Assembly: GCF_000166295.1 (NCBI RefSeq)
Contig: NC_017506.1
Location: 3,658,001 to 3,722,000, forward strand
DNA length: 64,000 nt
Direction of reading: 5' to 3'
Source: Marinobacter adhaerens HP15
Lineage (GTDB): Bacteria; Pseudomonadota; Gammaproteobacteria; Pseudomonadales; Oleiphilaceae
Shown: one piece after another, positions 13,164-51,653 of the stretch
Layout: the number at the start of each line of letters is the position of its first letter
How positions within the stretch are numbered: the first letter of the stretch is position 1
Notes under the pieces: generated by a model
The model's database searches: none
The model's input: the letters and a program-made list of their open reading frames with translations, nothing else
Told to the model about the DNA's origin: nothing
Translations under genes and position numbers: made by a program

Positions 13164-14075
13164 TTACTCCTTCGGTCCGCGGCCAAGGGAGCCAAGCAGG
13201 GCACCGTTCAGATGCTCCAGCTCCAGCAACAGGCCACTGTGGTCGACATCACTGTGGCCATTGGCCACCAGCGACAGGTATTCGTTATGGGTCTGCTGGG
13301 CCAGGGGCAGGGTCAACCCTTCCGCACGGGCCTCATCCAGAATCATCCGCATGTCCTTTAGCTGGATCCGAGCCGGCGCGCCGGGTGCAAACTCCCGGTC
13401 GATCATCCGCTGGCCGTGCAGCTCCAGAATCCGGCTACCGGCAAACCCGCCCAGCAACGCTTCCCGCACAGCCGCAGGATCGGCACCGCCTTTCGCCGCC
13501 AGCAAAAGCGCCTCGGACACAGCACCAATGGTGATACCAACAATAGCCTGATTGGCCAGCTTCGCCAGTTGCCCCGCGCCAACAGGACCAATCCGCGTGC
13601 ACTTGCCGAGCGCCTCGAACACCGGCCGGGCGCGATCCACATCCGCTTCCGAGCCACCCGCCATGATACTCAGGCGGGCTTCAGCCGCGCCCACAGTACC
13701 CCCGGACACCGGCGCATCCACATACCCAGCGCCCTGCTCTGCAACCAACTCGCCATGCCGCCGGGCCACGGAAGGTTGAATTGAACTCATATCAATAACC
13801 AGCGCGCCCGGCTTCAGGGCATCAATCGCGCCCTGGGCGACCAGCACCTGCTCCACCACATCGCTGTTCTCCAGCATGGTGATCACCACATCGGCATTGG
13901 CAACGGCCTCCGCCGGGGATTCGGCGATCACCGCCTCAGAGGCAAACGGCTCGCACTTGCTGGACGTGCGGTTCCACAGAGTCATTGGAAAACCCGCGTT
14001 CAGGAGGTTACGGGTCATGGGCGTACCCATCAGGCCGATGCCAAGAAATGCAATATGGGGTTTAGTCGAGGTCAT
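13164..14075 (-). CDS. glxR: Tartronate semialdehyde reductase (2-hydroxy-3-oxopropionate reductase)
   Basis: The 303-aa product belongs to the beta-hydroxyacid dehydrogenase family. It has an N-terminal Rossmann motif F-L-G-I-G-L-M-G-T-P-M, the substrate-binding D-A-P-V-S-G-G-T-x-G-A-A, and the catalytic Lys in G-A-G-Q-L-A-K-L-A-N-Q. It is expected to reduce tartronate semialdehyde to D-glycerate with NAD(P)H. It lies directly upstream of hyi, which strongly favours glxR/garR over 3-hydroxyisobutyrate dehydrogenase, the main alternative. Confidence 0.85.
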   Translation of the reverse strand: MTSTKPHIAFLGIGLMGTPMTRNLLNAGFPMTLWNRTSSKCEPFASEAVIAESPAEAVANADVVITMLENSDVVEQVLVAQGAIDALKPGALVIDMSSIQPSVARRHGELVAEQGAGYVDAPVSGGTVGAAEARLSIMAGGSEADVDRARPVFEALGKCTRIGPVGAGQLAKLANQAIVGITIGAVSEALLLAAKGGADPAAVREALLGGFAGSRILELHGQRMIDREFAPGAPARIQLKDMRMILDEARAEGLTLPLAQQTHNEYLSLVANGHSDVDHSGLLLELEHLNGALLGSLGRGPKE

Positions 14076-14155
14076 GGTTAGCTGGCCTTACTCAGAGGTT
14101 CGGGGCGTGGTTGGGTGGCGTCTTCCACAAAAGTTAGATAGCCGATTATACAAAC

Positions 14156-14192
14156 AAAAACGCCACCAACCGGAACCGGTGGTGGCGTTTTT
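14156..14192 (-). terminator. Terminator of rpoH
   Basis: CGCCACCA (14161-14168) pairs with TGGTGGCG (14180-14187), with an extra CCGG/CCGG pairing in the loop. On the minus strand the stem is followed by TTTTTGTTT, 60 bases after the rpoH stop. The plus strand also has a U-run after the stem, so it could work in both directions. Confidence 0.8.
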
Positions 14193-14225
14193 TACGACTC
14201 AGATACTCAGTGGCTAGCCAATAAC

Positions 14226-25677: not shown

Positions 25678-25956
25678 ATGAAACAGCGTCTACGCCAGCT
25701 CTTTTCGTTTATTCTCAAACCACTGGAATCCGGAAAGGTTGGGCCCAGCTACAAAGATTCGCACCGCACCGTGCTGAATGTGGTGGGCGTCCTGTTCCTC
25801 GTTCTGGCGACGGTGTCAGCGGCCATGCTCGTTTACACCGGCAAGGCAGGCGCCTTGATCCCCGTGCTTGTTTTCTTCGGTATTGGTGGCGTGTCCCTGG
25901 TCGTCGGGACGTTGGGCTCGGATGCCGCGGTGTCGAAGATGTGGGGCAATCGGTGA
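25678..25956 (+). CDS. Small inner-membrane protein of unknown function
   Basis: The 92-aa product has a basic N-terminus and two membrane segments (about 35-55 and 60-80) joined by a short loop. It has no recognised motif. I chose the ATG at 25678 with AGGA upstream; a start 11 codons earlier would overlap the pckA terminator. It stands 44 bases before the next membrane protein gene and may be co-transcribed with it. Confidence 0.6.
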   Translation: MKQRLRQLFSFILKPLESGKVGPSYKDSHRTVLNVVGVLFLVLATVSAAMLVYTGKAGALIPVLVFFGIGGVSLVVGTLGSDAAVSKMWGNR

Positions 25957-25986
25957 GCTGAACCAGTTCCAACAAGGAGGTTATTC

Positions 25987-26010
25987 ATGGGGAAGCATTC
26001 ATGGAACTGA
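25987..26010 (+). other. Seven-codon frame overlapping the membrane protein start
   Basis: AAGGAGG (25974-25980) lies six bases before an ATG at 25987 that encodes MGKHSWN and stops at TGA 26008-26010. That stop is seven bases past the ATG (26001) of the membrane protein in another frame. It could couple translation to the downstream gene or mark a chance start. Confidence 0.25.
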
Positions 26011-27035
26011 AGCGCAGTCTTCTCGATCAAGCCGCAGGCAAAGAGATCATAACGGACGAACAGGCTGACCAACTCTGGACGTTCCTCTCAGAACAGCAGC
26101 AACAAACACCCTCTTTCCGTTTCACCCACATCCTTTATTACTTCGGCGGGCTGATTGCAATCGGGGCCATGAGCCTGTTCATGACCCTCTCGTGGGAAAG
26201 CCTTGGTGGATGGGGTCTGCTACTGATTGCCCTGATCTACGCCGGCGCAGGCCTTTGGCTCACCGAGTTTTTCCTGAAGCGGCTGGACCTGAAAATTCCT
26301 GCCGGGATCACTGCCACTTTTGTCGTTGTCCTTACTCCACTCGCGGTTTTCGGGTTTCAGGCCGGCATGGGCTGGTGGTCGGGCGGCCATGAATACCGGG
26401 ACTACCACCGCTACATCGACTGGAGCTGGTTATTCATGGAACTGGCTACACTGGCCTCAGGCGCAGTCATGCTGTGGCGCTACCGATTGCCCTTCCTGGT
26501 CATGCCGGTGGCCGTGACGCTCTGGTACATGAGTATGGATCTGGCTCCCTTCCTGTTCGGTGAGGAGTTCGTTGCCTGGGAACTCAGGAAATGGGTCTCC
26601 CTGTGGTTCGGACTCCTGATCGCCCTGTTGGCTTTCTGGGTGGATATCCGAAATCAGAGCAGCCGCGACTTTGCGTTCTGGTTATACATATTCGGTGTCA
26701 CGGCTTTCTGGAGCGGACTTTCCCTGATGGAGTCTGAGAGCGAATGGAGCAAGCTTCTCTACTGCATGGTGAATATTGGCATGATTTTCACCGGGGCCAT
26801 TCTGGGCCGGCGGGTATTCGTGGTCTTCGGCGGTCTGGGAGTCGCCGGGTACCTTGGCTATCTTGCCTACGAGGTTTTCGAGAACAGCCTTCTGTTTCCA
26901 ATTGCGCTTACGTTGATTGGTCTGGCGATCGTGTGGTTGGGCATTCTGTGGCAACGGCACGAACAGCCCGTTTCAAACCGGTTGCGACGCCTTCTTCCCG
27001 CACCGCTCAGGGAACTGATCGAGCGTCGCCATTAG
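26001..27035 (+). CDS. Polytopic membrane protein (DUF2157-like)
   Basis: The 344-aa product has a cytoplasmic helical N-terminus (about 1-40, with L-L-D-Q-A-A-G-K-E-I-I-T-D-E-Q-A-D-Q-L-W) followed by about nine hydrophobic segments. The N-terminal pattern resembles DUF2157 proteins, whose role is unknown. The ATG at 26001 has GGGGAAG seven bases upstream. A stronger AAGGAGG at 25974-25980 serves a seven-codon frame that overlaps this start. It is convergent with the TRAP permease gene. Confidence 0.65.
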   Translation: MELKRSLLDQAAGKEIITDEQADQLWTFLSEQQQQTPSFRFTHILYYFGGLIAIGAMSLFMTLSWESLGGWGLLLIALIYAGAGLWLTEFFLKRLDLKIPAGITATFVVVLTPLAVFGFQAGMGWWSGGHEYRDYHRYIDWSWLFMELATLASGAVMLWRYRLPFLVMPVAVTLWYMSMDLAPFLFGEEFVAWELRKWVSLWFGLLIALLAFWVDIRNQSSRDFAFWLYIFGVTAFWSGLSLMESESEWSKLLYCMVNIGMIFTGAILGRRVFVVFGGLGVAGYLGYLAYEVFENSLLFPIALTLIGLAIVWLGILWQRHEQPVSNRLRRLLPAPLRELIERRH

Positions 27036-38074: not shown

Positions 38075-38467
38075 ATGGATGACAACTTCGAGAACTTGAA
38101 GATCATGGTGATCGACGACAGTAAAACCATACGTCGCACCGCAGAAACCCTTCTGAAAAAGGTCGGCTGTGAGGTCATCACCGCGACTGACGGCTTTGAC
38201 GCTCTTGCCAAGATTGCCGATTCACAGCCGGACATCATTTTTGTCGATATCATGATGCCCCGCCTGGACGGCTACCAGACCTGCGCACTTATCAAGAACA
38301 ATTCCTCCTTCAAAAAGACGCCGGTTATCATGCTCTCCAGCAAGGACGGTCTGTTCGACAAGGCCAAGGGCCGTATCGTCGGCTCGGACCAGTATCTGAC
38401 CAAACCGTTCAGTAAGGATGAGCTGCTTAATACCATCCGCCAGTATGTTCCACAGGCGGAACAGTAA
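38075..38467 (+). CDS. pilG: PilG, CheY-like twitching response regulator
   Basis: The 130-aa product is a single receiver domain with phospho-acceptor D58 (F-V-D-I-M-M-P-R-L-D-G), the acidic pair in M-V-I-D-D-S-K-T-I-R-R and Lys in Y-L-T-K-P-F. PilG takes phosphate from ChpA and promotes pilus extension. It is the first gene of pilGHIJK-chpABC. The N-terminus M-D-D-N-F-E-N-L-K-I-M matches PilG rather than PilH. Confidence 0.96.
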   Translation: MDDNFENLKIMVIDDSKTIRRTAETLLKKVGCEVITATDGFDALAKIADSQPDIIFVDIMMPRLDGYQTCALIKNNSSFKKTPVIMLSSKDGLFDKAKGRIVGSDQYLTKPFSKDELLNTIRQYVPQAEQ

Positions 38468-38499
38468 ACCTGCTGACCCCAAGAACTATCGAGGAAACC

Positions 38500-38862
38500 A
38501 TGGCCCGCATTCTTATTGTTGACGATTCCCCTACCGAGGTTAAGAAAATCTCCACGATCCTGGAAAAGCATAAGCACGAGGTGCTTACAGCTGACAACGG
38601 CGCAGACGGCGTTGCCAAGGCTCGTGCAGAGACCCCGGACCTGGTTCTGATGGATGTGGTTATGCCGGGCCTGAACGGCTTTCAGGCAACCCGCCAACTG
38701 ACCCGCGCCCCGGAAACCGCGTCCATCCCGGTCGTCATCGTAACCACCAAGGATCAGGAAACTGACCGCGTTTGGGGCACCCGACAGGGCGCCAAGGGTT
38801 ACCTGGTCAAGCCGGTTAACGAAGACGACCTGATCAAAACAATCAACAGTCTGATTGCCTGA
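38500..38862 (+). CDS. pilH: PilH, CheY-like twitching response regulator
   Basis: The 120-aa product is a lone receiver with D52 (L-V-L-M-D-V-V-M-P-G), and M-A-R-I-L-I-V-D-D-S-P-T-E at the start is the PilH form. PilH acts with the retraction side and may drain phosphate from the system. It lies 32 bases after pilG with GAGGAAACC before its ATG. Confidence 0.96.
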   Translation: MARILIVDDSPTEVKKISTILEKHKHEVLTADNGADGVAKARAETPDLVLMDVVMPGLNGFQATRQLTRAPETASIPVVIVTTKDQETDRVWGTRQGAKGYLVKPVNEDDLIKTINSLIA

Positions 38863-38882
38863 TCCCCAACCGTGGAGTAAGC

Positions 38883-39428
38883 ATGTCCGCCCAGGCCGCC
38901 CCTTTTGCCGTTCTGACGGATATCGCCGCGCGCAGCCGGTCGCTGGCTGCCGGCCTGCCGGAACAACAGCAAGCCGTTGAACTGTGGAACGGCATCGGCT
39001 TCGTTCTCGCAGGCGAACGGTATGTTGCCCCCATGGGCGAAGTCACTGAAATCCTCCACGTCCCCCGGTTTACCCATATACCGGGGGTTCGCCCGTTTTT
39101 GCTTGGCGCGGCCAATGTTCGCGGCCGCCTCCTGCCCCTGGTTGATCTTGCCGGCTTTTTCGATATTCCCCGCTCTTCCCGTAGCCAGCGGGAACGGCGC
39201 GTGCTGGTGGTAGAGCAGGGTGACATTTTCAGCGGGCTGGTAGTCGATAGTGTGCTGGGCATGCAGTATTTCGCAACTGACAGTTTCAAGGATTCGCCCG
39301 AGGGCGTGCCTGAAAACGTTCGACCGTTTGTCTCAGGCGGTTATGAACGCAACGAGGAAGTCTGGAAAGTGTTTTCGGCCGTCGACCTGCTCGAGGACGA
39401 ACGATTTCTTGACGTCGCACAGTGGTAA
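38883..39428 (+). CDS. pilI: PilI, CheW-like adaptor
   Basis: The 181-aa product is a CheW domain: W-N-G-I-G-F-V-L-A-G-E-R-Y-V-A-P-M-G-E-V-T-E-I, then G-A-A-N-V-R-G-R-L-L-P-L-V-D-L. It links the receptor PilJ to ChpA. It is 20 bases after pilH and is followed by a 91-base gap before pilJ. Confidence 0.94.
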   Translation: MSAQAAPFAVLTDIAARSRSLAAGLPEQQQAVELWNGIGFVLAGERYVAPMGEVTEILHVPRFTHIPGVRPFLLGAANVRGRLLPLVDLAGFFDIPRSSRSQRERRVLVVEQGDIFSGLVVDSVLGMQYFATDSFKDSPEGVPENVRPFVSGGYERNEEVWKVFSAVDLLEDERFLDVAQW

Positions 39429-39519
39429 GGGTGGTGACAATGGCAGGAACATCACCCTGACCGCCTGAAACCCGAAAAAACAAACTTGCCAATTTCTTGA
39501 AGAGGCCGGGAGCCAGAAA

Positions 39520-41595
39520 ATGAAGAACAGAGCCGGAAGACTCAGTATGGGACAGGGAGGCAACAAGCTGGTTGCCGGCCTGATCGCCGCGCTGATCGCA
39601 CTCACTATCCTGCTCGTTGTGGTGCTGTTCATTATCAATACAGACAGCCAGAACGATCAGGAATACATCGCCAACACCGCCGAACTGAGGGTGCTCTCTC
39701 AGGAGATTGCGAAGAACGCGACCGAGGCTGCCGGCGGTACCGCCGAGGCCTTCAACCAGCTGCGCCGCTCCCGTGACGAATTCCAGCAGCTCTGGACCAA
39801 CGTAACCGAGGGTAATCCGGAAACCGGTCTGCCGCCGAGTGAACTGGCCCAGCAGAGTGGCGTTCAGGAAAACTGGAACACCGTGCGGGAAAACGCCGAC
39901 AGCATCCTCTCCACCCAGGATGCGGTGCTCGGTCTACACGAGGTTGCCCGGACTCTGAACGAAACCATTCCGCAGCTGCAGGTTGAGTACGACGATATCG
40001 TACAAATCCTGCTCGACAACGACGCACCCGCCGAACAGATCGCACTGGCCCAGCGTCAGTCACTCCTGGCGGAGCGGATTGTTCGCTCGGTTAACAACGT
40101 ACTCTCCGGTGACGAAGACGCGGTTATCGCCGCGGACCGTTTCGGTCGTGACGCAAGCCTGTTCGGCCGAGTGCTTGAAGGCCAGCTGAACGGCAACCCG
40201 GCCATGGGGATCTCCCAGGTAAATGACGAAGACGCCATCTACGGCCTTGAAGCTGTCGATGAACTGTTCCAGTTCGTTTCCCAGAACGTAGACGCGATCC
40301 TTGAAGCCTCTCCCGACCTCTTCAAGGTTCGTACTGCTGCCAGCGACATCTTCCAGAATTCCGAGATCCTGCTTTCCGAACTGTCTGTACTGGCCGAGAA
40401 CTTCCGGACCCAGTCCGGCTCACGTCTGGTCAGCCCGACCCTGGCCTTCGCGATCCTCGCCGCCATGGTTGCCATTGTTGTCTTTATCGGTCTGGCCCTG
40501 TACCGCGAAGCCCAGGCCCGACTGGCTACTACGCAAGAGCAGAACGAGCAGAACCAGAACGCGATCCTGCGACTGCTGGACGAACTGGCCGACCTGGCTG
40601 ATGGTGACTTGACCACCGAGGCCACGGTAACCGAGGACTTCACCGGTGCCATCGCCGACTCCATCAACTACGCGATCGACCAGATGCGCGGACTGGTACA
40701 GGCGATTCGTGGTACTGCCGTACGAGTAGCGTCAGCGGCTCAGGAAACCCAGGCCACTGCGATGCATCTTGCCGATGCTTCCGAGCACCAGGCCCAGGAA
40801 ATCGCCGGCGCCTCCGCCGCGGTGAACGAGATGGCCGTGTCCATCGACCAGGTATCCTCGAACGCTGCCGAGTCCTCCGCGGTTGCGGAGCGGTCGGTTG
40901 CGATCGCGAAGAAAGGCGCGGAAGTGGTACAGAACACCATCCGCGGCATGGACAACATCCGTGAGCAGATCCAGGAAACTTCCAAACGGATCAAGCGTCT
41001 GGGTGAATCTTCCCAGGAAATCGGTGACATCGTATCCCTGATCAACGACATCGCCGACCAGACCAACATCCTGTCCCTGAACGCGGCGATCCAGGCCTCC
41101 ATGGCCGGTGACGCTGGCCGGGGCTTCGCGGTTGTTGCGGACGAAGTACAGCGACTGGCGGAACGCTCCTCTGCAGCGACCAAGCAGATTGAAGCGCTGG
41201 TTAAGACGATCCAGTCGGACACCAACGAAGCCGTTATCTCCATGGAACACACCACCGCCGAGGTGGTCCGTGGTGCCCGTCTGGCCCAGGACGCGGGTAT
41301 CGCCCTCGAGGAAATCGAGAACGTATCCATGTCTCTGGCGGAACTGATCCAGAACATCTCCAACGCTGCACGTCAGCAGTCTTCGTCGGCGGCGCACATT
41401 TCCAACACCATGAACGTTATCCAGGAAATCACGTCCCAGACGTCTTCCGGTACCAACGCGACTGCGAAGTCTATCGGTAACCTGGCAGAAATGGCGTCCG
41501 AGCTTCGGTCCTCCGTTGCCGGCTTTACTCTGCCGGAAGAAGACGTGGCTGATCACGAGGAAGAGGAAGACAGCGACGTTCCGGTGGTGGGCTGA
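39520..41595 (+). CDS. pilJ: PilJ, pilus chemoreceptor
   Basis: The 691-aa protein has TM1 near 20-43, a large periplasmic PilJ-type domain, TM2 near 307-330, HAMP, and a methyl-accepting signalling domain. The tip reads Q-T-N-I-L-S-L-N-A-A-I-Q-A-S-M-A-G-D-A-G-R-G-F-A-V-V. PilJ senses retracted pilin (PilA) and controls ChpA. The DNA uses a very uniform set of GC-ending codons, suggesting strong expression. The C-terminal acidic tail ends D-S-D-V-P-V-V-G. Confidence 0.96.
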   Translation: MKNRAGRLSMGQGGNKLVAGLIAALIALTILLVVVLFIINTDSQNDQEYIANTAELRVLSQEIAKNATEAAGGTAEAFNQLRRSRDEFQQLWTNVTEGNPETGLPPSELAQQSGVQENWNTVRENADSILSTQDAVLGLHEVARTLNETIPQLQVEYDDIVQILLDNDAPAEQIALAQRQSLLAERIVRSVNNVLSGDEDAVIAADRFGRDASLFGRVLEGQLNGNPAMGISQVNDEDAIYGLEAVDELFQFVSQNVDAILEASPDLFKVRTAASDIFQNSEILLSELSVLAENFRTQSGSRLVSPTLAFAILAAMVAIVVFIGLALYREAQARLATTQEQNEQNQNAILRLLDELADLADGDLTTEATVTEDFTGAIADSINYAIDQMRGLVQAIRGTAVRVASAAQETQATAMHLADASEHQAQEIAGASAAVNEMAVSIDQVSSNAAESSAVAERSVAIAKKGAEVVQNTIRGMDNIREQIQETSKRIKRLGESSQEIGDIVSLINDIADQTNILSLNAAIQASMAGDAGRGFAVVADEVQRLAERSSAATKQIEALVKTIQSDTNEAVISMEHTTAEVVRGARLAQDAGIALEEIENVSMSLAELIQNISNAARQQSSSAAHISNTMNVIQEITSQTSSGTNATAKSIGNLAEMASELRSSVAGFTLPEEDVADHEEEEDSDVPVVG

Positions 41596-41622
41596 TTTCC
41601 GTTCCAGGGCTGTTGACGGTTT

Positions 41623-42522
41623 ATGGCGCAAATGCATGACAACCTGTCACCTGCCGAGGGCATCTGGTCACTGCGTCGACTCCCGGATATGGACGAGGCG
41701 CAGTTCAGCCAGTGGCAAACCCTGCTGGAACACCGAACCGGGATCACCCTGTCGTCCGAGCGCCGTTCGTTTCTGGAAACGAACCTTGGCATCCGGATGC
41801 GGGAAATCGGCTGCAGCAGCTATCAGGCCTATTACGAAAAGATCGTATCCGGGCCGGATGCAATCAGGGAATGGTCAACGCTGGTGGACCGGCTCACTGT
41901 CCAGGAAACCCGGTTCTTCCGGGATCCCGACGCTTTCCGGCTGGTATCCGACTATGTCCTGACACGGCCGCGGGAACAGCTGAAAAAGCGCCCCCTTGAG
42001 GCCTGGAGTGTCGGATGTTCCACCGGGGAAGAGCCCTACACCCTGGCCATGGTGCTGAATGAATGCATGGAGCAACTGGCATTGCAGCCTCTGTTCGGTG
42101 TCACCGGCTCTGATATCAGCAAGCCGGTGATCGAGAAGGCCCGGAACGGTCAGTTCAATCCCCGCAAACTGCTGGGAATGGACGAGGAAATGAAAGCACG
42201 GTATTTCCGCCCGGCCGAGCGGAACACCGTAGAAATCGTAAACAGCATCCGCGACAGGGTGTGCTTTACCAGACTGAATGTTCTGGACCTGGATAAAGCA
42301 CCCATGCACGGGATGAACATTATCTTCTGCCAGAATCTGCTGATTTATTTCCGCCGCTGGCGCCGGCGGGAAATTGTCAAGCGACTTGCAGAGCGGCTGG
42401 CGCCCGGGGGGTTGCTGGTACTGGGCCAGGGAGAGCTGACCGACTGGCAGCCTCCAGGGTTACAGAGAGTCCCCTCGGAACATGTGCTGGCGTGGATCAA
42501 ACGCCAGACTGACGAAGAATAA
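41623..42522 (+). CDS. pilK: PilK, CheR-like methyltransferase
   Basis: The 299-aa product has the CheR layout: helical N domain, the SAM site W-S-V-G-C-S-T-G-E-E-P-Y-T-L-A-M near residue 129 and the later F-C-Q-N-L-L-I-Y-F. It methylates glutamates on PilJ and is counteracted by ChpB. Start is ATG 41623; an ATG three codons later is possible. Confidence 0.94.
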   Translation: MAQMHDNLSPAEGIWSLRRLPDMDEAQFSQWQTLLEHRTGITLSSERRSFLETNLGIRMREIGCSSYQAYYEKIVSGPDAIREWSTLVDRLTVQETRFFRDPDAFRLVSDYVLTRPREQLKKRPLEAWSVGCSTGEEPYTLAMVLNECMEQLALQPLFGVTGSDISKPVIEKARNGQFNPRKLLGMDEEMKARYFRPAERNTVEIVNSIRDRVCFTRLNVLDLDKAPMHGMNIIFCQNLLIYFRRWRRREIVKRLAERLAPGGLLVLGQGELTDWQPPGLQRVPSEHVLAWIKRQTDEE

Positions 42523-42533
42523 CCGGAGTGGTT

Positions 42534-45500
42534 ATGGGCAATCACCATGACAGCATCGCCCTCGACTGGGTTCGGGGAGAGATACAGGACACGCTGACCC
42601 AGGGTCAGCATGCACTGGAAGCGTATGTCGAGAATCGTGACGACACCGCGCGCCTGCGCTTCTGCCTGAATTATCTCCATCAGGTACATGGCACCCTGCA
42701 AATGGTCGAGCTCTATGGTGCAGCCCTGCTCACCGAGGAGATGGAAAAGCTCACCCAGGCCGTACTCAACGAAACCGTTGCCAATACCGACGAAGCCGTT
42801 GAAGTCCTGATGCAGGCCATCCTGCAGTTGCCCCAGTACCTCGAGCATCTGGCCAGCAGCCAGGACGATTTCCCGATGGTGCTGCTGCCACTGCTTAACG
42901 ACCTCCGGGCCGCCCGTGGCGAATCCCTGCTGTCTGATACCTCTTTGTTCAAACCAGACCTGGCCCCCTCGCGAATGACCGTGTCCGGGAAGGTCTCCCA
43001 GCGCCTGCAGGACCCCACGGTCCTGGGCCACATCCGCAAACTGCGCCAGATGTACCAGTTCGCGCTGGCCGGTGTTATCCGGGAAGCGGATCTCGATGCT
43101 CATTTCGAGTACATGCAGAAGGTTATTCAACGGTTGGTCCGTTTATGCCAGAAAACGCCCCGGGGCGAGCTCTGGAAAGCGGCCAGTGCGTTTGTGGAAA
43201 CACTTCAGGCACACGTAAACCCGGTGAATGCGGCGGTGAAATCCCTGCTCAGGGAGCTGGACAGTGAAATACGCCGACTGACCGATGAGCACGCCGATAT
43301 CCTTCAGCAACCGGCACCGGAAGCGCTGCTCAAACACCTGCTCTACTACGTTGCCCGTGCGCGGGATCTGGATTCACCCCAGGTCAGTGCCCTGCGGGAT
43401 GCCTACCAGTTGAACCAGGCACTGCCGTCAGAAGACGATGTTGATGCCGCCCGAACCCGTGTCTCCGGCCCCGGCCGGGACGCCATCCATTCCGTTGTCG
43501 GCGCGCTCAATGAAGAGCTGGCGAAACTGAAGGATCAGCTGGATCTGTTTGTCCGCTCGGAGCTCCGCCAGAACAGTGAGCTTGACGACCTGTTGCCGGG
43601 TCTGCGCCAGGTAGCCAATACCCTGGCCGTGCTGGGTCTGGGCATACCGCGGAAAGTGATCACCGAGCAGGTCGAACTGGTTGAGAAACTCAGCGCCCAG
43701 GCCGAGCTGGTTGACGATGGCACGCTGATGGATATCGCCGGCGCACTGCTTTACGTCGAAGCCAGTCTCGCCGGTCTGGACAGCGAAGGTCAGCAGGAGT
43801 CGTCCGCTGAAGAAACCTCCGATACACCGATTAACCTTGGCTCCCGGGAACTGGGTGAGGCCAGCGGCGCGTTGCTGCGGGAATCGCGGAACACTCTGGA
43901 GCAGGTGAAATCCGCCATCGTCAATTTCATTGCGTCGCAATGGGATACCCGGGAAATCGAGCATGTCCCCGGCCTGCTGCACAGCATTCGCGGCGGCCTC
44001 AGCCTGATTCCGCTGGACCGGGTTGCAAGCATGCTGGCCTCGGCAGAGCGCTACATCAGCGATGTGCTGCTGGACGGCAAGCAGGTTCCTGACTGGAAGC
44101 AGCTCGACATCCTGGCCGATGCGGTTACCAGCATCGAGTATTACCTGGAGCGCCTCGCTGAAGGGATTGGTGAAAACGATTCAATTCTGCGGGTTGCCGA
44201 GGACAGTCTCGCTTCCCTCGGCTTCCCGGTCGGGGCTGAGCCCACCTGGACGGAAACCACGGCCCAGGAAGAGCCCGTCGCTGAACCGTCTTACGAGCAG
44301 GATGAAGCCAGCGTTTCGACCGCCCCGGAAGAAGCCAAAAGCTCGGATTCGGAGCTCCTGGACGACGAGATTCTCGGCATTTTCGTTGAGGAAGCCGAAG
44401 AGGTTCTCGAGACCATTCATGAATTCTATCCGCGTCTGCGCCAGAATCACGACGACCGTGAGGCTCTGACCGAAGTTCGTCGTGCTTTCCATACGCTCAA
44501 GGGCAGCGGACGACTTGTGGGCGCGACCAGTATCGGCGAATTGGCATGGTCTGTGGAAAACCTGCTGAACCGGGTGATCGATCAGACCATTCGCCCCACC
44601 GAAGACATGTTTACCCTGGTGGACGAGGTCAATGCCCGCATTCCGTCACTGATTCGTGAATTCAAGGACGGCCAGACCGCAGGCGACGTGGAGGAGCTCA
44701 TCAACCGGGCCGAAGCCATGGCAACCACCCGTCGCACCGACGACGATGCCGTGACGGCGCCAGACACTCCCGAGGTCGAAGACACCGTCGCCGACTCGGG
44801 AGAAGAAGAGCAGGAAACCCCGGAATCCATCGTTGAAGAAGCCACCGTTGAGGCCGTGTCGGATGAGTCCGCCGATGACGATGACCTGATTGACGATGAA
44901 ATACTTGAAATATTCGTCGAAGAAGCCGGTGAGGTGCTGGACACCATTCGCGAATACCTGCCAATGCTTTTGCGCCAGCACGATGACCGCAGCGCTTTGT
45001 CAGAAGTTCGCCGTGCCTTCCACACGCTGAAAGGCAGTGGCCGCATGGTCGGCGCGCTGGTTGTTGGCGAATTGGCCTGGTCCGTGGAAAACATGCTGAA
45101 CCGCGTTATCGACGGCAGCATCTTCATGAACGATGACATCGCCAGTCTTCTGGAGGATGTCACTGCCAGCCTGCCGGCCCTGGTCGACGATTTCGAGAAG
45201 CGCCGTGCGGCTTCCTTCGATACCGCCAACCTCGAAGCCCGCGCCAACGCCCTGGCCAGCGGTGAGATTCCCGATGCCAGCATGATGCCGGCGGCCGAAT
45301 CGGACGGCTCCGAAACCGTAGCGGAAGATGAGATCACCGCTGCAGGCGCAGAGATCGAGACGGCTGAAGAAGATGCGGTCGACCCGGTATTGCTGGATAT
45401 TTTTGAAAGTGAAACCGAGACCCATCTGCAGACGCTGAAGGATTTCCTGTCAGCAGCCGGAGACAAGACCACGGTTACCTATACCGATGATCTTTCCCGG

Positions 45501-48224
45501 GCCCTGCATACCCTCAAAGGCAGCGCCCATACCGCCGGCATCGCACCCATTGCTGCTGTAATCACACCACTGGAACGCTTCGTCAAGGAATCCCGGGCGC
45601 AGAACAAGCGGGCCAACCGCGACGTGCTCTCGCTGATCGAATCCGCCTGCGATTTCCTGACCCAGGGCCTGGCCCAGATCCGTGAAAATCCACAGGCCTC
45701 GCTGCCTGGCACCGAAGCCTTCCTCGAGAAGCTGGACCAACTGACCGAAGAGACACTCCGCGGCCACAGCGAGGAAGCTCCGCGCCAGCATCCGCAGCAG
45801 GCTCCGTCACGGCTGGTTCAGCTGTTCCTGAACGAAGGCCTCGACATTGTTCTGGATGCTGACCAGATTCTCGACCACTGGGCGGACAACCCCGGCGAGA
45901 TGGAGTCGTTGAACCCGTTGCGTTCTGAGCTGGAGCAGTTGACCTCCGGGGCCTCCGAAGCCGGGCTCAGCGACGTCGCCGCGCTCTCAAGCGCGTTGAA
46001 AGACACCTACGAAGAAGCCGCCAGACACGATGAAGCGCCAGACGAAACCTTTTTCGAGACCGTTCGGGCAGCTCACGAACAGCTGATCAACATGATGGAT
46101 CAAGTGGCTGCCGGGCTTGCCACGGAATCCAGCGACGACATGGTTACCGCGCTCGAAAACCTGAAACGGGCCCCAAGCACAAAAAACGAGGAACCCGACG
46201 CCTTCGAGCAGGAATTCACCGGTGAACTCGAGGAAATCGATCTCAGCTTTGAGATGGATGAAACCGAAGTACCGGCAAATGAAGAACCAGCGGCGGCCGA
46301 ACAACCGCCGCTGCCGGAAATGTCCGAATCCGATGATGAGATGGACGAGGAGCTTGCGGAGATCTTCCTGGAAGAGGCCCGCGACCTCATCGACAGCACC
46401 GCCGAAGCGCTGCAGAGCTGGAGCGAAAATACCGGAAACCTGGATATCCTTCGGTTGCTGCAGCGGGATCTGCATACCCTTAAGGGAGGTGCACGCCTGG
46501 CCGACATTCCTGCCGTGGGCGATCTCTCCCACGAGCTGGAAAACCTGTTTGAGGGACTGACCGAGCAGCGGCTATCGATCAATGATGAACTCTCAGATCT
46601 GCTGTTCCGCTGCCACGATCGGCTTGCGGGCATGGTCGAGAACCTGGAAGCCAAGGAGCCACCGCGCCCTGCGCCGGATCTGATTGGCGAAATCCAGGCG
46701 TACATGGACAGCGCCACCGGAACACGCCCGGTCACCAATGTTGCGAGCCCTGAAGAAGAAGCGGAACCGGATTTCAACGACGAAGAGCAGGCCCCGCTCC
46801 CGGAAGTCGACGAACCCGTCGATTCCGATTCAGAAACCGCGGAAACCGGCGAGGCGGAAGACGGCGTTGCCGATCTCTCGCACCTGGATCCGGAGCTGGT
46901 CGGCATTTTCCTGGAAGAAGCCTACGACCTGATCAACTCTACCGGCAGCGCCCTGCACACCTGGACCGAAGACCCGTCGGACCGGAGCATTGCCGCGGAA
47001 CTGCAGAGGGATGTCCACACGCTCAAGGGTGGCGCCCGGATGGCTGGCGTTGAGGCCATTGGCGACCTGACCCACGTGCTCGAAGACCTGTTCGAAAAGG
47101 TTGCCGAGGGTCAGCTGGAAGCCAGCGACGCCATGAACGACCTCTTGTTCGCCTGCCATGACCGGCTGGCGCAAATGGTTGAGCAGGTGGCGACGCAGAA
47201 GCCTTGCCCACCGGCGGAGGAGCTGGTCGCTCGCGTCCAGTCCATCCTTCGGGGCGAGTCGGCGCCGTCCGATGATCGTGAGCAAGAGCCGGAACAGCCG
47301 GCAGGGGCCGAAATTGCCGAGGCGCCCACCGAGGAGTCAGCAGATGCCCCCGACCTCAGCGAGACTCTGACACAGGCCAGCGATGATGACCTGATCGGCA
47401 TCTTCCTGGACGAAGGCCTGGAAATCTACGGCGCCATCAGTGAGTGTCTTGACCAGTGGCGCGAGGAGCCGGAGGAACTGACCGGACTGACCCAGCTGCA
47501 GCAGGAACTGCATACCCTCAAGGGTGGTGCACGACTTTCTGACGTCGATCCGATTGCCAACCTGGCAGAAGCCTGGTCCGACGCTCTGGATCCCCTCATC
47601 TCCGGGTCCAATAACCAGAAGACGTTGCTGAAGCTCAGCGACCGGGCATTGGGCAGCCTGAAGACCATGCTCAACAGCCTGGAACAGGGCAGCAAGCCCG
47701 AGCCGGATGCGGACCTGATCGAGGACTTCCGGGTGGCCCACGAAGTGGCCGCCGAAGAGACCGCTGCTCCCCGAGAAGAGTCCCAACAGGAAGCGATCGA
47801 TCCGGAAGTACTGGAAATCTTCCTGGAGGAAGCCGGTGAAATCATGGATCAGCTGGAGCAGCTGCTCGATGACTGGCGCAAGGAGCCGGCAAACCACACC
47901 TTCAACCAGGAAGCCCAGCGTGCATTGCATACGTTGAAAGGCGGCGCTCGCCTCTCCCAGCTGACCCAGCTTGGGGACAGCGCCCACGCCTTTGAGACAC
48001 GTCTGATCGACCTTGGCGGCAATGCCCCGGATGAGTCCCAGTGGCAGGCCATTACCGAAGATCACGACGCCATCATCGCCCTGGTTGCCGACATCCGTAA
48101 GGGCTATGAGTCCGGCATGGGTGTGCCTTCGGCAAAGGCCGAACAGCCTGCGCCAGCCCCGGCCGCGCCGGAACCGAAAAAGCCTGAAGAGCCAACGCCT
48201 CCCGCCCAGGCAGAAAACCGGTAG
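42534..48224 (+). CDS. chpA: ChpA, Hpt-domain array (5' part of frameshifted gene)
   Basis: 1896 codons encode the phosphotransfer half of ChpA. The ATG at 42534 has GGAG five bases upstream and is preferred to a GTG two codons before. Nine histidine-bearing Hpt-like motifs are visible: H49 (H-Q-V-H-G), H483 (H-S-I-R-G) and seven H-T-L-K-G copies at H653, H830, H992, H1314, H1495, H1660 and H1799. A further Hpt-like helix bundle has E1134 where the His should be. Acidic linkers separate them. The frame stops at TAG 48222, just past a proline-rich linker. The kinase core continues in the -1 frame from about 48215, so the complete protein would be about 2530 residues, near the pseudomonad size. 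Confidence 0.85.
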   Translation: MGNHHDSIALDWVRGEIQDTLTQGQHALEAYVENRDDTARLRFCLNYLHQVHGTLQMVELYGAALLTEEMEKLTQAVLNETVANTDEAVEVLMQAILQLPQYLEHLASSQDDFPMVLLPLLNDLRAARGESLLSDTSLFKPDLAPSRMTVSGKVSQRLQDPTVLGHIRKLRQMYQFALAGVIREADLDAHFEYMQKVIQRLVRLCQKTPRGELWKAASAFVETLQAHVNPVNAAVKSLLRELDSEIRRLTDEHADILQQPAPEALLKHLLYYVARARDLDSPQVSALRDAYQLNQALPSEDDVDAARTRVSGPGRDAIHSVVGALNEELAKLKDQLDLFVRSELRQNSELDDLLPGLRQVANTLAVLGLGIPRKVITEQVELVEKLSAQAELVDDGTLMDIAGALLYVEASLAGLDSEGQQESSAEETSDTPINLGSRELGEASGALLRESRNTLEQVKSAIVNFIASQWDTREIEHVPGLLHSIRGGLSLIPLDRVASMLASAERYISDVLLDGKQVPDWKQLDILADAVTSIEYYLERLAEGIGENDSILRVAEDSLASLGFPVGAEPTWTETTAQEEPVAEPSYEQDEASVSTAPEEAKSSDSELLDDEILGIFVEEAEEVLETIHEFYPRLRQNHDDREALTEVRRAFHTLKGSGRLVGATSIGELAWSVENLLNRVIDQTIRPTEDMFTLVDEVNARIPSLIREFKDGQTAGDVEELINRAEAMATTRRTDDDAVTAPDTPEVEDTVADSGEEEQETPESIVEEATVEAVSDESADDDDLIDDEILEIFVEEAGEVLDTIREYLPMLLRQHDDRSALSEVRRAFHTLKGSGRMVGALVVGELAWSVENMLNRVIDGSIFMNDDIASLLEDVTASLPALVDDFEKRRAASFDTANLEARANALASGEIPDASMMPAAESDGSETVAEDEITAAGAEIETAEEDAVDPVLLDIFESETETHLQTLKDFLSAAGDKTTVTYTDDLSRALHTLKGSAHTAGIAPIAAVITPLERFVKESRAQNKRANRDVLSLIESACDFLTQGLAQIRENPQASLPGTEAFLEKLDQLTEETLRGHSEEAPRQHPQQAPSRLVQLFLNEGLDIVLDADQILDHWADNPGEMESLNPLRSELEQLTSGASEAGLSDVAALSSALKDTYEEAARHDEAPDETFFETVRAAHEQLINMMDQVAAGLATESSDDMVTALENLKRAPSTKNEEPDAFEQEFTGELEEIDLSFEMDETEVPANEEPAAAEQPPLPEMSESDDEMDEELAEIFLEEARDLIDSTAEALQSWSENTGNLDILRLLQRDLHTLKGGARLADIPAVGDLSHELENLFEGLTEQRLSINDELSDLLFRCHDRLAGMVENLEAKEPPRPAPDLIGEIQAYMDSATGTRPVTNVASPEEEAEPDFNDEEQAPLPEVDEPVDSDSETAETGEAEDGVADLSHLDPELVGIFLEEAYDLINSTGSALHTWTEDPSDRSIAAELQRDVHTLKGGARMAGVEAIGDLTHVLEDLFEKVAEGQLEASDAMNDLLFACHDRLAQMVEQVATQKPCPPAEELVARVQSILRGESAPSDDREQEPEQPAGAEIAEAPTEESADAPDLSETLTQASDDDLIGIFLDEGLEIYGAISECLDQWREEPEELTGLTQLQQELHTLKGGARLSDVDPIANLAEAWSDALDPLISGSNNQKTLLKLSDRALGSLKTMLNSLEQGSKPEPDADLIEDFRVAHEVAAEETAAPREESQQEAIDPEVLEIFLEEAGEIMDQLEQLLDDWRKEPANHTFNQEAQRALHTLKGGARLSQLTQLGDSAHAFETRLIDLGGNAPDESQWQAITEDHDAIIALVADIRKGYESGMGVPSAKAEQPAPAPAAPEPKKPEEPTPPAQAENR
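48213..48224 (+). other. Frameshift site in chpA
   Basis: GCA GAA AAC CGG TAG ends the first frame. Re-reading one base back from the AAAA tract gives AAA CCG GTA GCA CCG GCA CCG AAG, the same proline-alanine-lysine linker. This continues without a stop into the conserved kinase core. A fifth A would restore one frame, so a one-base deletion in the homopolymer, or a sequencing error, is the simplest explanation. Confidence 0.8.
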
Positions 48225-50128
48225 CACCGGCACCGAAGCCCGGGAAATCACCGGCCAAGGTTCGCAAACAGGCGGCCGAGGCACAGCGGGCGGCCCAGGA
48301 GACCATTCGGGTGTCCGCACCGCTGCTGGATGAGCTGGTCAACCTGGCGGGTGAAACCAGTATTACCCGTGGCCGGCTTGAGCAGCAGACTAGTGATTTT
48401 GGCCATACCCTGGAGGAAATGGCCGCCACCATCGAGCGTCTGCGTGAGCAGCTGCGCCGGATGGAAATCGAGACTGAAGCCCAGATCCTGTTCAGTGCCG
48501 AGAAAGAACACGGGCCGGATTACGGCGACGACTTCGACCCGCTGGAGATGGACCGTTACTCCTCCATTCAGCAGCTGTCCCGCGCTCTGACCGAGTCCTC
48601 TTCGGACCTTGCAGACCTGCGGGAAACCCTGTCTGACCGGGTACGGGACACCGAAACCCTGCTTGTGCAGCAGTCCCGGATCAACACGGAACTCCAGGAG
48701 GGTCTGATGAAGACCCGGATGATTCCGTTCGCCTCCATGGTGCCGCGTCTGCGGCGCATCGTTCGCCAGATCAGCGGCGAACTGGGCAAGAAAGTCGACT
48801 TTGATGTCCGCAACGCCGAAGGCGAAATGGACAGGAGCATCCTGGAGCGCATGATCGCACCCCTGGAACACATGCTCCGGAACGCCCTGGACCACGGCAT
48901 CGAAAGCCCGGCGGACCGTAAGCAAGCCGGCAAGCCGGAGACCGGCGAAGTCACACTGTCACTGACCCGCGAAGGCGGCGACGTTGTCCTGAGGATGATC
49001 GACGATGGCGCCGGCATTCCCTCTTCGGTCATTCGCGACAAGGCGATCCGTCAGGGCATGCTGCGGGAAGACGAGGATCTGTCCGAGCGGGAAATCCTGC
49101 AGTTTATCCTGCAGCCCGGCTTCTCTACCGCCCAACAAGTAACCCAGATTTCCGGCCGCGGCGTGGGCATGGACGTGGTTGCCAGCGAGATCAAACAGCT
49201 CGGTGGCAGCCTGGACATCGATTCCGCCGTTGGCCGCGGAACCACCTTCACGGTTCGCCTGCCGTTCACGGTTTCCGTCAACCGGGCGCTGATGGTGTCC
49301 ACCGGCGAGGATTTCTACGCGATCCCGCTGAACACCATCGAGGGTATTGTCCGGGTCAGCACCTACGAGCTTGAGGAATACTACAAGCCGGACGCGCCGA
49401 TGTACGAATACGCCGGCCAGGAATACCGGCTCCAGTATCTGGGCAGCCTGCTGAACAGCGATCACCATCCGAAGCTGCAGGGACAAGCCCTGCCGCTGCC
49501 AGTGATCCTGGTACGCGGCGCCGAGCAGCCCATGGCCCTGCAGGTGGACAACCTGATGGGCAGCCGGGAGATCGTTGTTAAATCCCTTGGCCCGCAATTC
49601 AGTTCGGTGCGCGGTGTGTCCGGTGCCACCATCCTGGGTGACGGCAACGTGGTCGTAATCCTCGACCTGCCTGCGATGATCCGTTCCGACATCCTGTCCG
49701 AGCGCCAGCGTCTGGCCAACCTCGAGAAGGCTCGCGAGTCCGCCCGTTATGAGGAACAGGCCACCGTGGTCATGGTGGTGGACGACTCGGTTACCGTACG
49801 GAAGGTTACCTCACGACTGCTGGAGCGCAATGGCATGGAAGTCATCACTGCCAAAGACGGCCTGGACGCGGTCGCACAGCTGCAGGATCACAAACCGGAC
49901 ATCATCCTGCTGGATATCGAAATGCCGCGGATGGATGGTTTCGAGGTTGCCAGCTTTGTGCGCCACGACGATAGCCTGCGGGAAATTCCGATCTGCATGA
50001 TCACCTCACGGACCGGCGAGAAACACCGCGAACGTGCGCTGGCCATTGGTGTGAACGAGTACCTCGGCAAGCCGTTCCAGGAAACCGAGTTGCTTGAGAC
50101 TATTGAGCGGCTGACCGGACGTCAGTGA
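48215..50128 (+). CDS. chpA: ChpA, CheA-type kinase core and receiver (3' part)
   Basis: This frame encodes, in order, a P3-like dimerisation helix pair, the HATPase domain (H-M-L-R-N-A-L-D-H-G-I-E N box; D-D-G-A-G-I-P; G-R-G-V-G-M-D-V-V), a CheW-like regulatory domain and a C-terminal receiver (V-V-D-D-S-V-T-V-R-K; I-L-L-D-I-E-M-P). It lacks all Hpt sites. If chpA were truly broken, an internal GTG at 48311 with AGGAG ten bases before it could initiate a 605-aa core. The TGA at the end overlaps the chpB ATG by one base. Confidence 0.85.
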   Translation, partial: KPVAPAPKPGKSPAKVRKQAAEAQRAAQETIRVSAPLLDELVNLAGETSITRGRLEQQTSDFGHTLEEMAATIERLREQLRRMEIETEAQILFSAEKEHGPDYGDDFDPLEMDRYSSIQQLSRALTESSSDLADLRETLSDRVRDTETLLVQQSRINTELQEGLMKTRMIPFASMVPRLRRIVRQISGELGKKVDFDVRNAEGEMDRSILERMIAPLEHMLRNALDHGIESPADRKQAGKPETGEVTLSLTREGGDVVLRMIDDGAGIPSSVIRDKAIRQGMLREDEDLSEREILQFILQPGFSTAQQVTQISGRGVGMDVVASEIKQLGGSLDIDSAVGRGTTFTVRLPFTVSVNRALMVSTGEDFYAIPLNTIEGIVRVSTYELEEYYKPDAPMYEYAGQEYRLQYLGSLLNSDHHPKLQGQALPLPVILVRGAEQPMALQVDNLMGSREIVVKSLGPQFSSVRGVSGATILGDGNVVVILDLPAMIRSDILSERQRLANLEKARESARYEEQATVVMVVDDSVTVRKVTSRLLERNGMEVITAKDGLDAVAQLQDHKPDIILLDIEMPRMDGFEVASFVRHDDSLREIPICMITSRTGEKHRERALAIGVNEYLGKPFQETELLETIERLTGRQ

Positions 50129-51180
50129 TGGCCGGCCAGACTGGCCGGCCGCGGGTCGGGATCGTCTCGGATGTGGTTCTGCAGCGACACCGACTGCAGG
50201 CCGCAACATCCAAGTTCGGTCTGGAGGTGCGTTTTGCCGGGGATCCCGAGCGTTTGCTGGGCTACCCGGAGTTCCCGGATGCCAGCCTCTGGCTGGTTAC
50301 CCTCGAAGACGAGGCCGATCACCCATTACTGTTCGATCACCTGCTTGAAAATACCGATGCACCGGTACTGTTCGGATTGGATGAAGCACCCAAGCCGGGA
50401 AGTACCGAGTATTTTCGCTGGGAACGACGTTTACTGGGCAAACTTGAGCAGCAACTGGGGCACCTGGAAGAGCTGGACTCAGAAGCGACTCTGGCAGAAC
50501 TGGAGCAGGAAACGCCGGCACCAGCACCATCGCCGGGACTGCCTCACTGGATAACGCCTGCCGTGCCCGGTTCGGTAGCCGAGGAAGTCTGGATTCTGGG
50601 CGCTTCACTGGGAGGGCCGGCGGCGGTTAAGACGTTTCTGGACCACCTGCCGCCGAATCTGCCCGTGGGCTTCATCTACGCCCAACACATAGATGGGAAC
50701 TTCACAGAGGTTCTTACGCGGGTACTGGGTCGTCACGCCCATTACCAGCTCAAGCGGGCCGAGGAAGGCTATCGGGTCAAGAATGGTGATGTCGTGCTGA
50801 TGCCGGTGGAGCACGAGTGGAAGCTGAGCGAGCAGGGAGCCCTGACGGAAACCAGCAATGCCTGGCCGGGCCCCTATGGCCCCTCCATTGATCAGGTCCT
50901 GCTTAACGTCGCGGACCATTACGGCCAGCGCTGCCATGCTATTCTTTTTTCCGGCATGGGTAATGATGGCGCTATTGCAGCGCCTTTACTGAAAGCCTAC
51001 GGTAGCCGGATCTGGGTCCAGGAGAGCACAAGCTGCGGCAACAGCTCTATGCCCGAATCCGTCGCCGCCACCGGTTGCAGCGGTTTCTGTGGCACCCCGG
51101 AGCAGCTGGCACGGGAACTGGTAAAAACCATCGAAGAATCCTGCCTGCTCAAGAGCCGGCAGAAACGGGACTCCGCCTGA
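50128..51180 (+). CDS. chpB: ChpB, CheB-like methylesterase
   Basis: The 350-aa product has a degenerate receiver-like N-terminus (no phospho-Asp motif is visible) and a C-terminal methylesterase with the triad S160 (G-A-S-L-G-G), H187 (A-Q-H-I-D-G) and D280 (G-N-D-G-A). It removes methyl groups from PilJ. Its ATG overlaps the chpA stop (TGATG). Confidence 0.92.
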   Translation: MAGQTGRPRVGIVSDVVLQRHRLQAATSKFGLEVRFAGDPERLLGYPEFPDASLWLVTLEDEADHPLLFDHLLENTDAPVLFGLDEAPKPGSTEYFRWERRLLGKLEQQLGHLEELDSEATLAELEQETPAPAPSPGLPHWITPAVPGSVAEEVWILGASLGGPAAVKTFLDHLPPNLPVGFIYAQHIDGNFTEVLTRVLGRHAHYQLKRAEEGYRVKNGDVVLMPVEHEWKLSEQGALTETSNAWPGPYGPSIDQVLLNVADHYGQRCHAILFSGMGNDGAIAAPLLKAYGSRIWVQESTSCGNSSMPESVAATGCSGFCGTPEQLARELVKTIEESCLLKSRQKRDSA

Positions 51181-51191
51181 GGTAACACGCA

Positions 51192-51653
51192 ATGAATGAC
51201 AACAGCCAATCCCTCTCCTGCGTCATGATTCCCATGAGCGGACGGCAACTCTTGCTGCCCAACGTCTCGATTGCGGAAGTGGTCGACTATGCCAGCGCTG
51301 ATGCCGGCGCGAACACGCCGGAATGGCTGGTTGGCTACCTTGACTGGCGGGGCCTGCAGCTTCCGGTGATTTCATACGACGCGGCCAACGGCGGCGCCCT
51401 CACCGTTCCAGGTGACAATCGCGGTCGCATCGTGGTCCTCAACACCATCGGCGATCATCACAAGGAAGTCCCGTTTATGGCACTGGTTACCCAGGGCATC
51501 CCCAGCCAGGCCCGTTTGGCGGAAGACCAGGTCAAGAAGCTGGAGGGTGAACCGGGGCCGGCGGATCTGATGCAGGTCGAGGTTGAAGGTGAGCATGCCT
51601 GGATCCCGAATCTGGAATTTCTGGAATCCCTGGTTGTAAAGTCCCGACACTGA
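51192..51653 (+). CDS. chpC: ChpC, CheW-like protein
   Basis: The 153-aa product is a CheW fold with M-I-P-M-S-G-R-Q-L-L-L-P-N-V-S-I-A-E-V-V and W-L-V-G-Y-L-D-W-R-G-L-Q-L-P-V-I-S. ChpC is thought to connect additional receptors to ChpA. It is 11 bases after chpB and is the last gene of the operon. Confidence 0.92.
   Translation: MNDNSQSLSCVMIPMSGRQLLLPNVSIAEVVDYASADAGANTPEWLVGYLDWRGLQLPVISYDAANGGALTVPGDNRGRIVVLNTIGDHHKEVPFMALVTQGIPSQARLAEDQVKKLEGEPGPADLMQVEVEGEHAWIPNLEFLESLVVKSRH

Follow-up and report, generated by a model that had tools for sequence, protein, structure and literature searches.

The gene chpA of Marinobacter adhaerens HP15 is broken, as assembled, by a change of reading frame between its array of Hpt domains and its CheA-type kinase core, and comparison with related genomes suggests that this break is probably a residual one-base indel error of the assembly. 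The gene lies in the pil-chp operon, within the stretch of 64,000 nucleotides analyzed here (contig NC_017506.1, positions 3,658,001 to 3,722,000 of the forward strand; hereafter the window). We confirmed that the break is present in the given sequence and that the coordinates first assigned to it are right; the present base count in the living cell is made doubtful by the comparison with relatives. The observations that carry this reading are that the break is private to this assembly, that isolated one-base losses are in excess against one relative, and that several conserved genes are cut alike. An error is the most likely explanation because the same assembly contains like breaks in genes that nearly all of the searched relatives keep in one frame.

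The two frames of chpA and the copies in relatives

The Hpt-array frame (42534..48224, + strand) starts with ATG at 42534, contains 1,896 codons, and ends with TAG at 48222-48224; an in-frame GTG is found upstream at 42528. The kinase-core frame (48188..50128, + strand) is the -1 frame relative to the array. Its nearest upstream stop is at 48185-48187; from 48188 on it is open until a stop whose last base is 50128. Both frames are open for 37 bases or 12 codons (48188..48224), and the TAG sits in the proline/lysine-rich linker that separates the array from the core. A genome search returned ten Hpt matches in the open chpA frame of 1,903 aa, and hmmscan returned eight stretches. The core piece showed, by hmmscan, the end of the linker followed by H-kinase_dim, HATPase_c, CheW, and Response_reg, and each piece carries complete domains. 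The gene is thus recognizable as chpA by its N-terminal multi-Hpt/Xpt array, by its CheA-type core with a CheW-like domain and a C-terminal receiver, and by its place in a pil-chp operon together with genes for a PilJ-type receptor and for CheW-like, CheR, and CheB proteins; array and core, being in two frames as assembled, are not one polypeptide. The original prediction had named the gene, given the 1,896 codons, the TAG, and the -1 frame of the core without an intervening stop, and placed the break between array and core in a proline-rich linker, all of which was borne out.

In the core frame, GTG 48311 is the sole ATG, GTG, or TTG ahead of the core. It is preceded by AGGAG at 48297-48301, also as predicted, and the two together (48297..48313, + strand) make a possible, non-conserved internal start for a core of 605 aa. 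The gap from the TAG to this GTG is 86 bases.

A comparison with related genomes had been suggested as a check, and when it was made, the nearest relatives, G009 and G085, were each found to encode an uninterrupted protein matched by both pieces, and the two matches abut in the relatives' DNA. Identity up to residue 1896 of the Hpt piece was 98.6% with G009 and 96.4% with G085, and from residue 10 of the core piece it was 99.7% with both. The two copies are whole and differ at the break from the HP15 genome (4.65 Mb in three contigs; G000 below) by one base in length. Thus, since the two pieces match one protein with abutting matches and the DNA differs by one base, the frame changes within the 37 bases that are open in both frames. 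Among the best 120 of 5,071 matches to the end of the Hpt piece, the best 24 were proteins of 2,510-2,531 aa, which were 97-99% identical over the Hpt end.

We then considered the genus, in which 120 genomes, G000 included, were searched. The core was found in one open frame of 2,017-2,748 aa in 109 of the 119 other Marinobacter genomes. The remaining ten had weak or partial matches (G033 and G078), had the gene at contig ends (G046, G084, and G059), or had breaks within the gene (G071, G035, G055, G036, and G092), so that the three at contig ends and the two with fragments only could not be judged over the whole gene. None of the five in-gene breaks lies in the last linker. The break at this place is therefore private to the G000 assembly, and the split is not maintained in the lineage, as 109 of the 119 genomes have the gene in one frame and the five in-gene breaks fall at other places. 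A mutational hot spot at this linker was rejected on the same ground.

A single break in chpA is seen in each of G071, G035, and G092, whose listed completeness is 99-100% and contamination 1-3%; it falls in the core or between Hpt units (near residues 770 and 1,250) and may reflect either a real null or an error. Several frame changes in chpA were found in two other Marinobacter assemblies, each a single contig with a listed contamination of 6%: two in G055, and five in G036, of which four are in the Hpt part and the fifth is in the core. Both assemblies are likely to be error-rich.

Core-only proteins also exist as database records. P0123, a protein of 605 aa on another contig of 34 kb, is identical to the core at 602 of 605 residues, one of the three differences being the start residue, and P0133, likewise of 605 aa, is 87% identical. 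Both start at the same valine as GTG 48311. They show that other contigs, too, have been read with a break somewhere upstream of the core. As a sign of recurrence at this site they were rejected: the linker of the window has no other start, so breaks at several places could lead a gene finder to the same valine. In Pseudomonas, the ChpA C-terminal proteins recorded as P0186 and P0192 (one of them on a 6.16-Mb contig) are no longer than 949 and 963 aa, and chpA appears to be cut short in some Pseudomonas assemblies too.

Similar breaks and one-base losses in the same assembly

To look for like breaks, 1.184 Mb of G000 was compared with the matching part of G085. The 758 G085 frames with an orthologue gave 20 break candidates in G000, and the 757 G000 frames gave 13 candidates in G085, four of which were mirror images of G000 breaks. 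Nine of the G000 candidates were clean in-gene breaks, each with a one-base length change (clean or not clean being our own judgement). They affect chpA, a GGDEF-EAL protein, a GTPase-like protein, a heme-A-synthase-like protein, hemF, an MsbA-related exporter, a cytochrome-c-like protein, pntB, and a 305-aa protein without a family; the GTPase-like and heme-A-synthase-like proteins both score below their family cut-offs. Left uncounted were three candidates in which the break lay ahead of the family match (cysZ, pnp, and an aldolase) and eight with a second piece of fewer than 40 residues. When the four mirror images and four candidates with a second piece of fewer than 40 residues are set aside, five candidates are left in G085, two or three of them clean.

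Several of the broken genes are kept in one frame by nearly all relatives. The results showed that: (i) hemF, which encodes the oxygen-dependent coproporphyrinogen oxidase (C1:3970292-3971142), is in one frame in 60/60 other genus genomes and split only in G000; (ii) the heme-A-synthase-like gene (C1:3998912-4000013; like hemF, outside the window) is likewise in one frame in 60/60 others and split only in G000, the match ending 12-38 residues short in four of the 60; and (iii) of the 42 others with a close orthologue of pntB, all except G036 (41 genomes) keep it in one frame, while six genomes have a distant homologue only and 12 have none. We also looked up mutL and mutS, as a test for a mutator. 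The mutL gene, outside the window at C1:2640861-2642533, is in two frames that meet near profile position 500, with a one-base length difference relative to G009, and it is in one frame in 59 of the 60 other genus genomes (the exception is again G036). In G000 itself, mutS, PilB, and HemN are each in one frame. The split of mutL is either the same kind of error or a sign of a real mutator.

In a pairwise comparison of two clean genomes, isolated one-base losses and gains should be even. With G085 as the reference, losses in G000 stood to gains at 56:27 (p = 0.0019) over all aligned sequence. The excess was largest outside runs (21:5, p = 0.0025) and absent in runs of two or three (10:8, p = 0.81). 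This pattern fits a consensus that drops single bases.

Error, real mutation, and evolved split

If the break is an error, it would have arisen in the sequencing or consensus step, and the cell would have a single intact ChpA, similar in length to that of near relatives (about 2,530 aa), in a pil-chp operon that is otherwise unbroken. Going by the family (PMC12632253), PilJ would signal through CheW-like adaptors to the ChpA core, the core would phosphorylate the Hpt domains of the same protein, and these would hand the phosphate to the PilG/PilH-like receivers. The original prediction had held an error in reserve as an alternative; with like breaks in conserved genes of the same assembly, it is now the reading that we rate highest, and the break is more likely than not no feature of the organism.

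A number of points weigh against this. The assembly is good by the usual measures (three contigs, 99.99% complete, and 0.26% contaminated). The number of broken genes in G000 is not significantly higher than that in G085, whether counted as 9 vs 3 (p = 0.14), as 10 vs 3 with cysZ added to the nine clean breaks (p = 0.09), or as 9 vs 5 when G085 is counted less strictly (p = 0.42). In runs of four or more, the ratio of losses to gains was 25:14, which is not significant (p = 0.11), and the commonest residue of long-read assemblies is said, in the available part of PMC8812927, to be homopolymer-length error, which is not where the excess in G000 is clearest. The excess rests on one relative, as G009 allowed a decision on no more than five of the 56 losses (one shared, four private to G000), and outside genes a part of it could come from additional bases in G085. 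P0123 indicates at least one other reading of a break upstream of the core. Finally, a natural mutL defect would also yield many one-base indels, and mutL is among the broken genes.

The next possibility, which we hold to be less likely, is that the indel is a real and recent loss-of-function mutation, perhaps in a mutL-deficient mutator. The strain would then have no full ChpA, and its pilus signaling would be off or badly impaired; an Hpt-only protein would be made, and perhaps a little core from GTG 48311. If errors fell at random at about one per 100 kb, a split of mutL by one base would, by a rough estimate, be a coincidence of about 2%, mutS being in one frame. The lack of a significant surplus of broken genes over G085 and the single chpA breaks of G071, G035, and G092 also speak for a real mutation. 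However, 16 of the 29 losses in excess lie outside homopolymer runs, which is not the pattern of a mismatch-repair defect, and the joint loss of hemF, the heme-A-synthase-like gene, pntB, mutL, and chpA would make an unlikely healthy strain, even though HemN, which is present, could cover the loss of hemF. A fuller version, in which the sequence is true, one-base losses have built up across the genome of a natural mutator with broken mutL over a short period, and ChpA is split into an Hpt protein and a separately started core with, maybe, phosphate transfer in trans, seems to us improbable.

The original prediction went further and envisaged a purposeful Hpt-only protein with a separate core. 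For the array and the core to be separate, interacting proteins, with the core phosphorylating the array in trans, is by analogy conceivable and in our judgement very unlikely. Both pieces hold complete domains, a plausible start is offered by AGGAG and GTG 48311, and split kinases have precedents in the accessible text of two reports (PMC3591291; PMC7656254); chemistry would allow a relay in trans, which CheA3/CheA4 demonstrates and the split PilL suggests, and nothing here points to selection for it. Against a functional split stand the privacy of the break and the single frame of chpA in 109 of the 119 relatives. The 86 bases between TAG and GTG are far for re-initiation, and translational coupling was rejected as the distance was judged too great. 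The GTG also fails as a dedicated start of the core. In 49 related loci, which include at least three genomes twice, the codon at this place was GTG in 7, GTA in 25, GTC in 10, and GTT in 7, so that 42 of the 49 have an ordinary valine codon other than GTG there. AGGA was found ahead of it in 48/49 loci, within the codons of a conserved Gln-Glu, and AGGAG in only 4/49. Internal initiation was accordingly rejected as an evolved feature, the start existing but being conserved in only 7/49 loci.

Relaxed selection on the core was examined through the ratio of nonsynonymous to synonymous substitution rates (dN/dS). The values were 0.009 against G009 and 0.022 against G085, and 0.009-0.022 across seven relatives, and relaxed selection was rejected on these values; the core is under strong constraint, as it should be had chpA been whole until just now.

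Phase variation in the A tract, also put forward in the original prediction, and programmed -1 frameshifting in the 12-codon overlap are, to our mind, the least probable of the explanations. The length difference does fall within a short run and the frames do overlap by 37 bases. However, known switching tracts are far longer than this run, and no long, conserved simple repeat of the kind that marks phase-variable loci was found: the run at the break is short, and its length differs between species by codon choice. The five other in-gene breaks are elsewhere. Programmed frameshifting was rejected since no in-frame slippery heptamer (X XXY YYZ) was seen in the overlap, the codons of which were read by eye, and the relatives need no frameshift. 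Among the titles listed for literature on chpA with frameshift or twitching, on Marinobacter type IV pili, and on phase variation of pili, there was none on a split or phase-variable chpA. With so short a run and no conservation of the GTG start, neither an on/off switch nor an evolved relay of two proteins is supported.

If the assembly is in error, the case is a warning that a signaling gene found broken in one genome should be taken for a new split relay only after the rest of that genome has been examined for similar breaks; annotation, too, would be mistaken in scoring the strain as without full ChpA, HemF, and MutL. If the break is real, Chp signaling is expected to be lost. The strain would then be a ChpA null of natural origin, in what may be a mutator background, and could be used to study Marinobacter pili that lack Chp signaling.

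The pil-chp operon and known systems

The operon spans 38075 to 51653 on the + strand and contains, in order, two stand-alone receivers, a CheW-like gene, a receptor with a PilJ N-terminal domain, a CheR-like gene, chpA, a CheB-like gene, and a second CheW-like gene. The upstream genes (38075..42522) encode the two receivers (PilG/PilH-like), the CheW-like protein (PilI-like), the methyl-accepting chemotaxis protein with the PilJ N-terminal domain, and the CheR protein (PilK-like); apart from PilJ, these names are those of the P. aeruginosa cluster, to which we take the genes to correspond. None of the upstream genes was marked as broken relative to G085 or G009. Downstream (50125..51653), the CheB-like gene overlaps the chpA stop by 4 bases and is followed by the CheW-like gene; they are presumably the counterparts of ChpB and ChpC. 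Elsewhere in the window, 13864-14221 and 25693-26072 hold frames of 150 and 127 aa that are small frame-change candidates against G009 and not against G085. One of them has a one-base difference, and both may be chance frames.

Small errors that cut genes are reported for long-read assemblies in the available parts of PMC12007338 and PMC8812927. The excess in G000 differs from them in being clearest outside runs.

In Synechocystis PCC 6803, the pilus CheA homologue PilL is encoded by two genes, PilL-N/Hik36 and PilL-C/Hik43, which are distant in the genome, and phosphorylation in trans by the core has been proposed for the pair (both from the accessible text of PMC7656254). In contrast, the pieces of chpA are adjacent, their frames overlap, and the sister copies are whole. 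In Rhodobacter sphaeroides, CheA4 phosphorylates CheA3, so that a core acts on the P1/Hpt domain of another protein, and each of the two has a P5 domain that brings it to the receptor cluster, as stated in the part of PMC3591291 that was available. The Hpt-only piece found here, unlike CheA3 and CheA4, has no CheW/P5 domain.

The ChpA of P. aeruginosa has, according to the accessible text of PMC12632253, at least nine Xpt domains, five of which are able to transfer phosphate, and a receiver. The gene described here resembles it in having an Hpt-like array ahead of a CheA-type core that carries CheW-like and receiver domains, and in its operon with PilJ-, CheW-, CheR-, and CheB-type genes. It differs from it, as assembled, in the change of frame within the linker between array and core, a linker that is unbroken in 109 of the 119 genus relatives.

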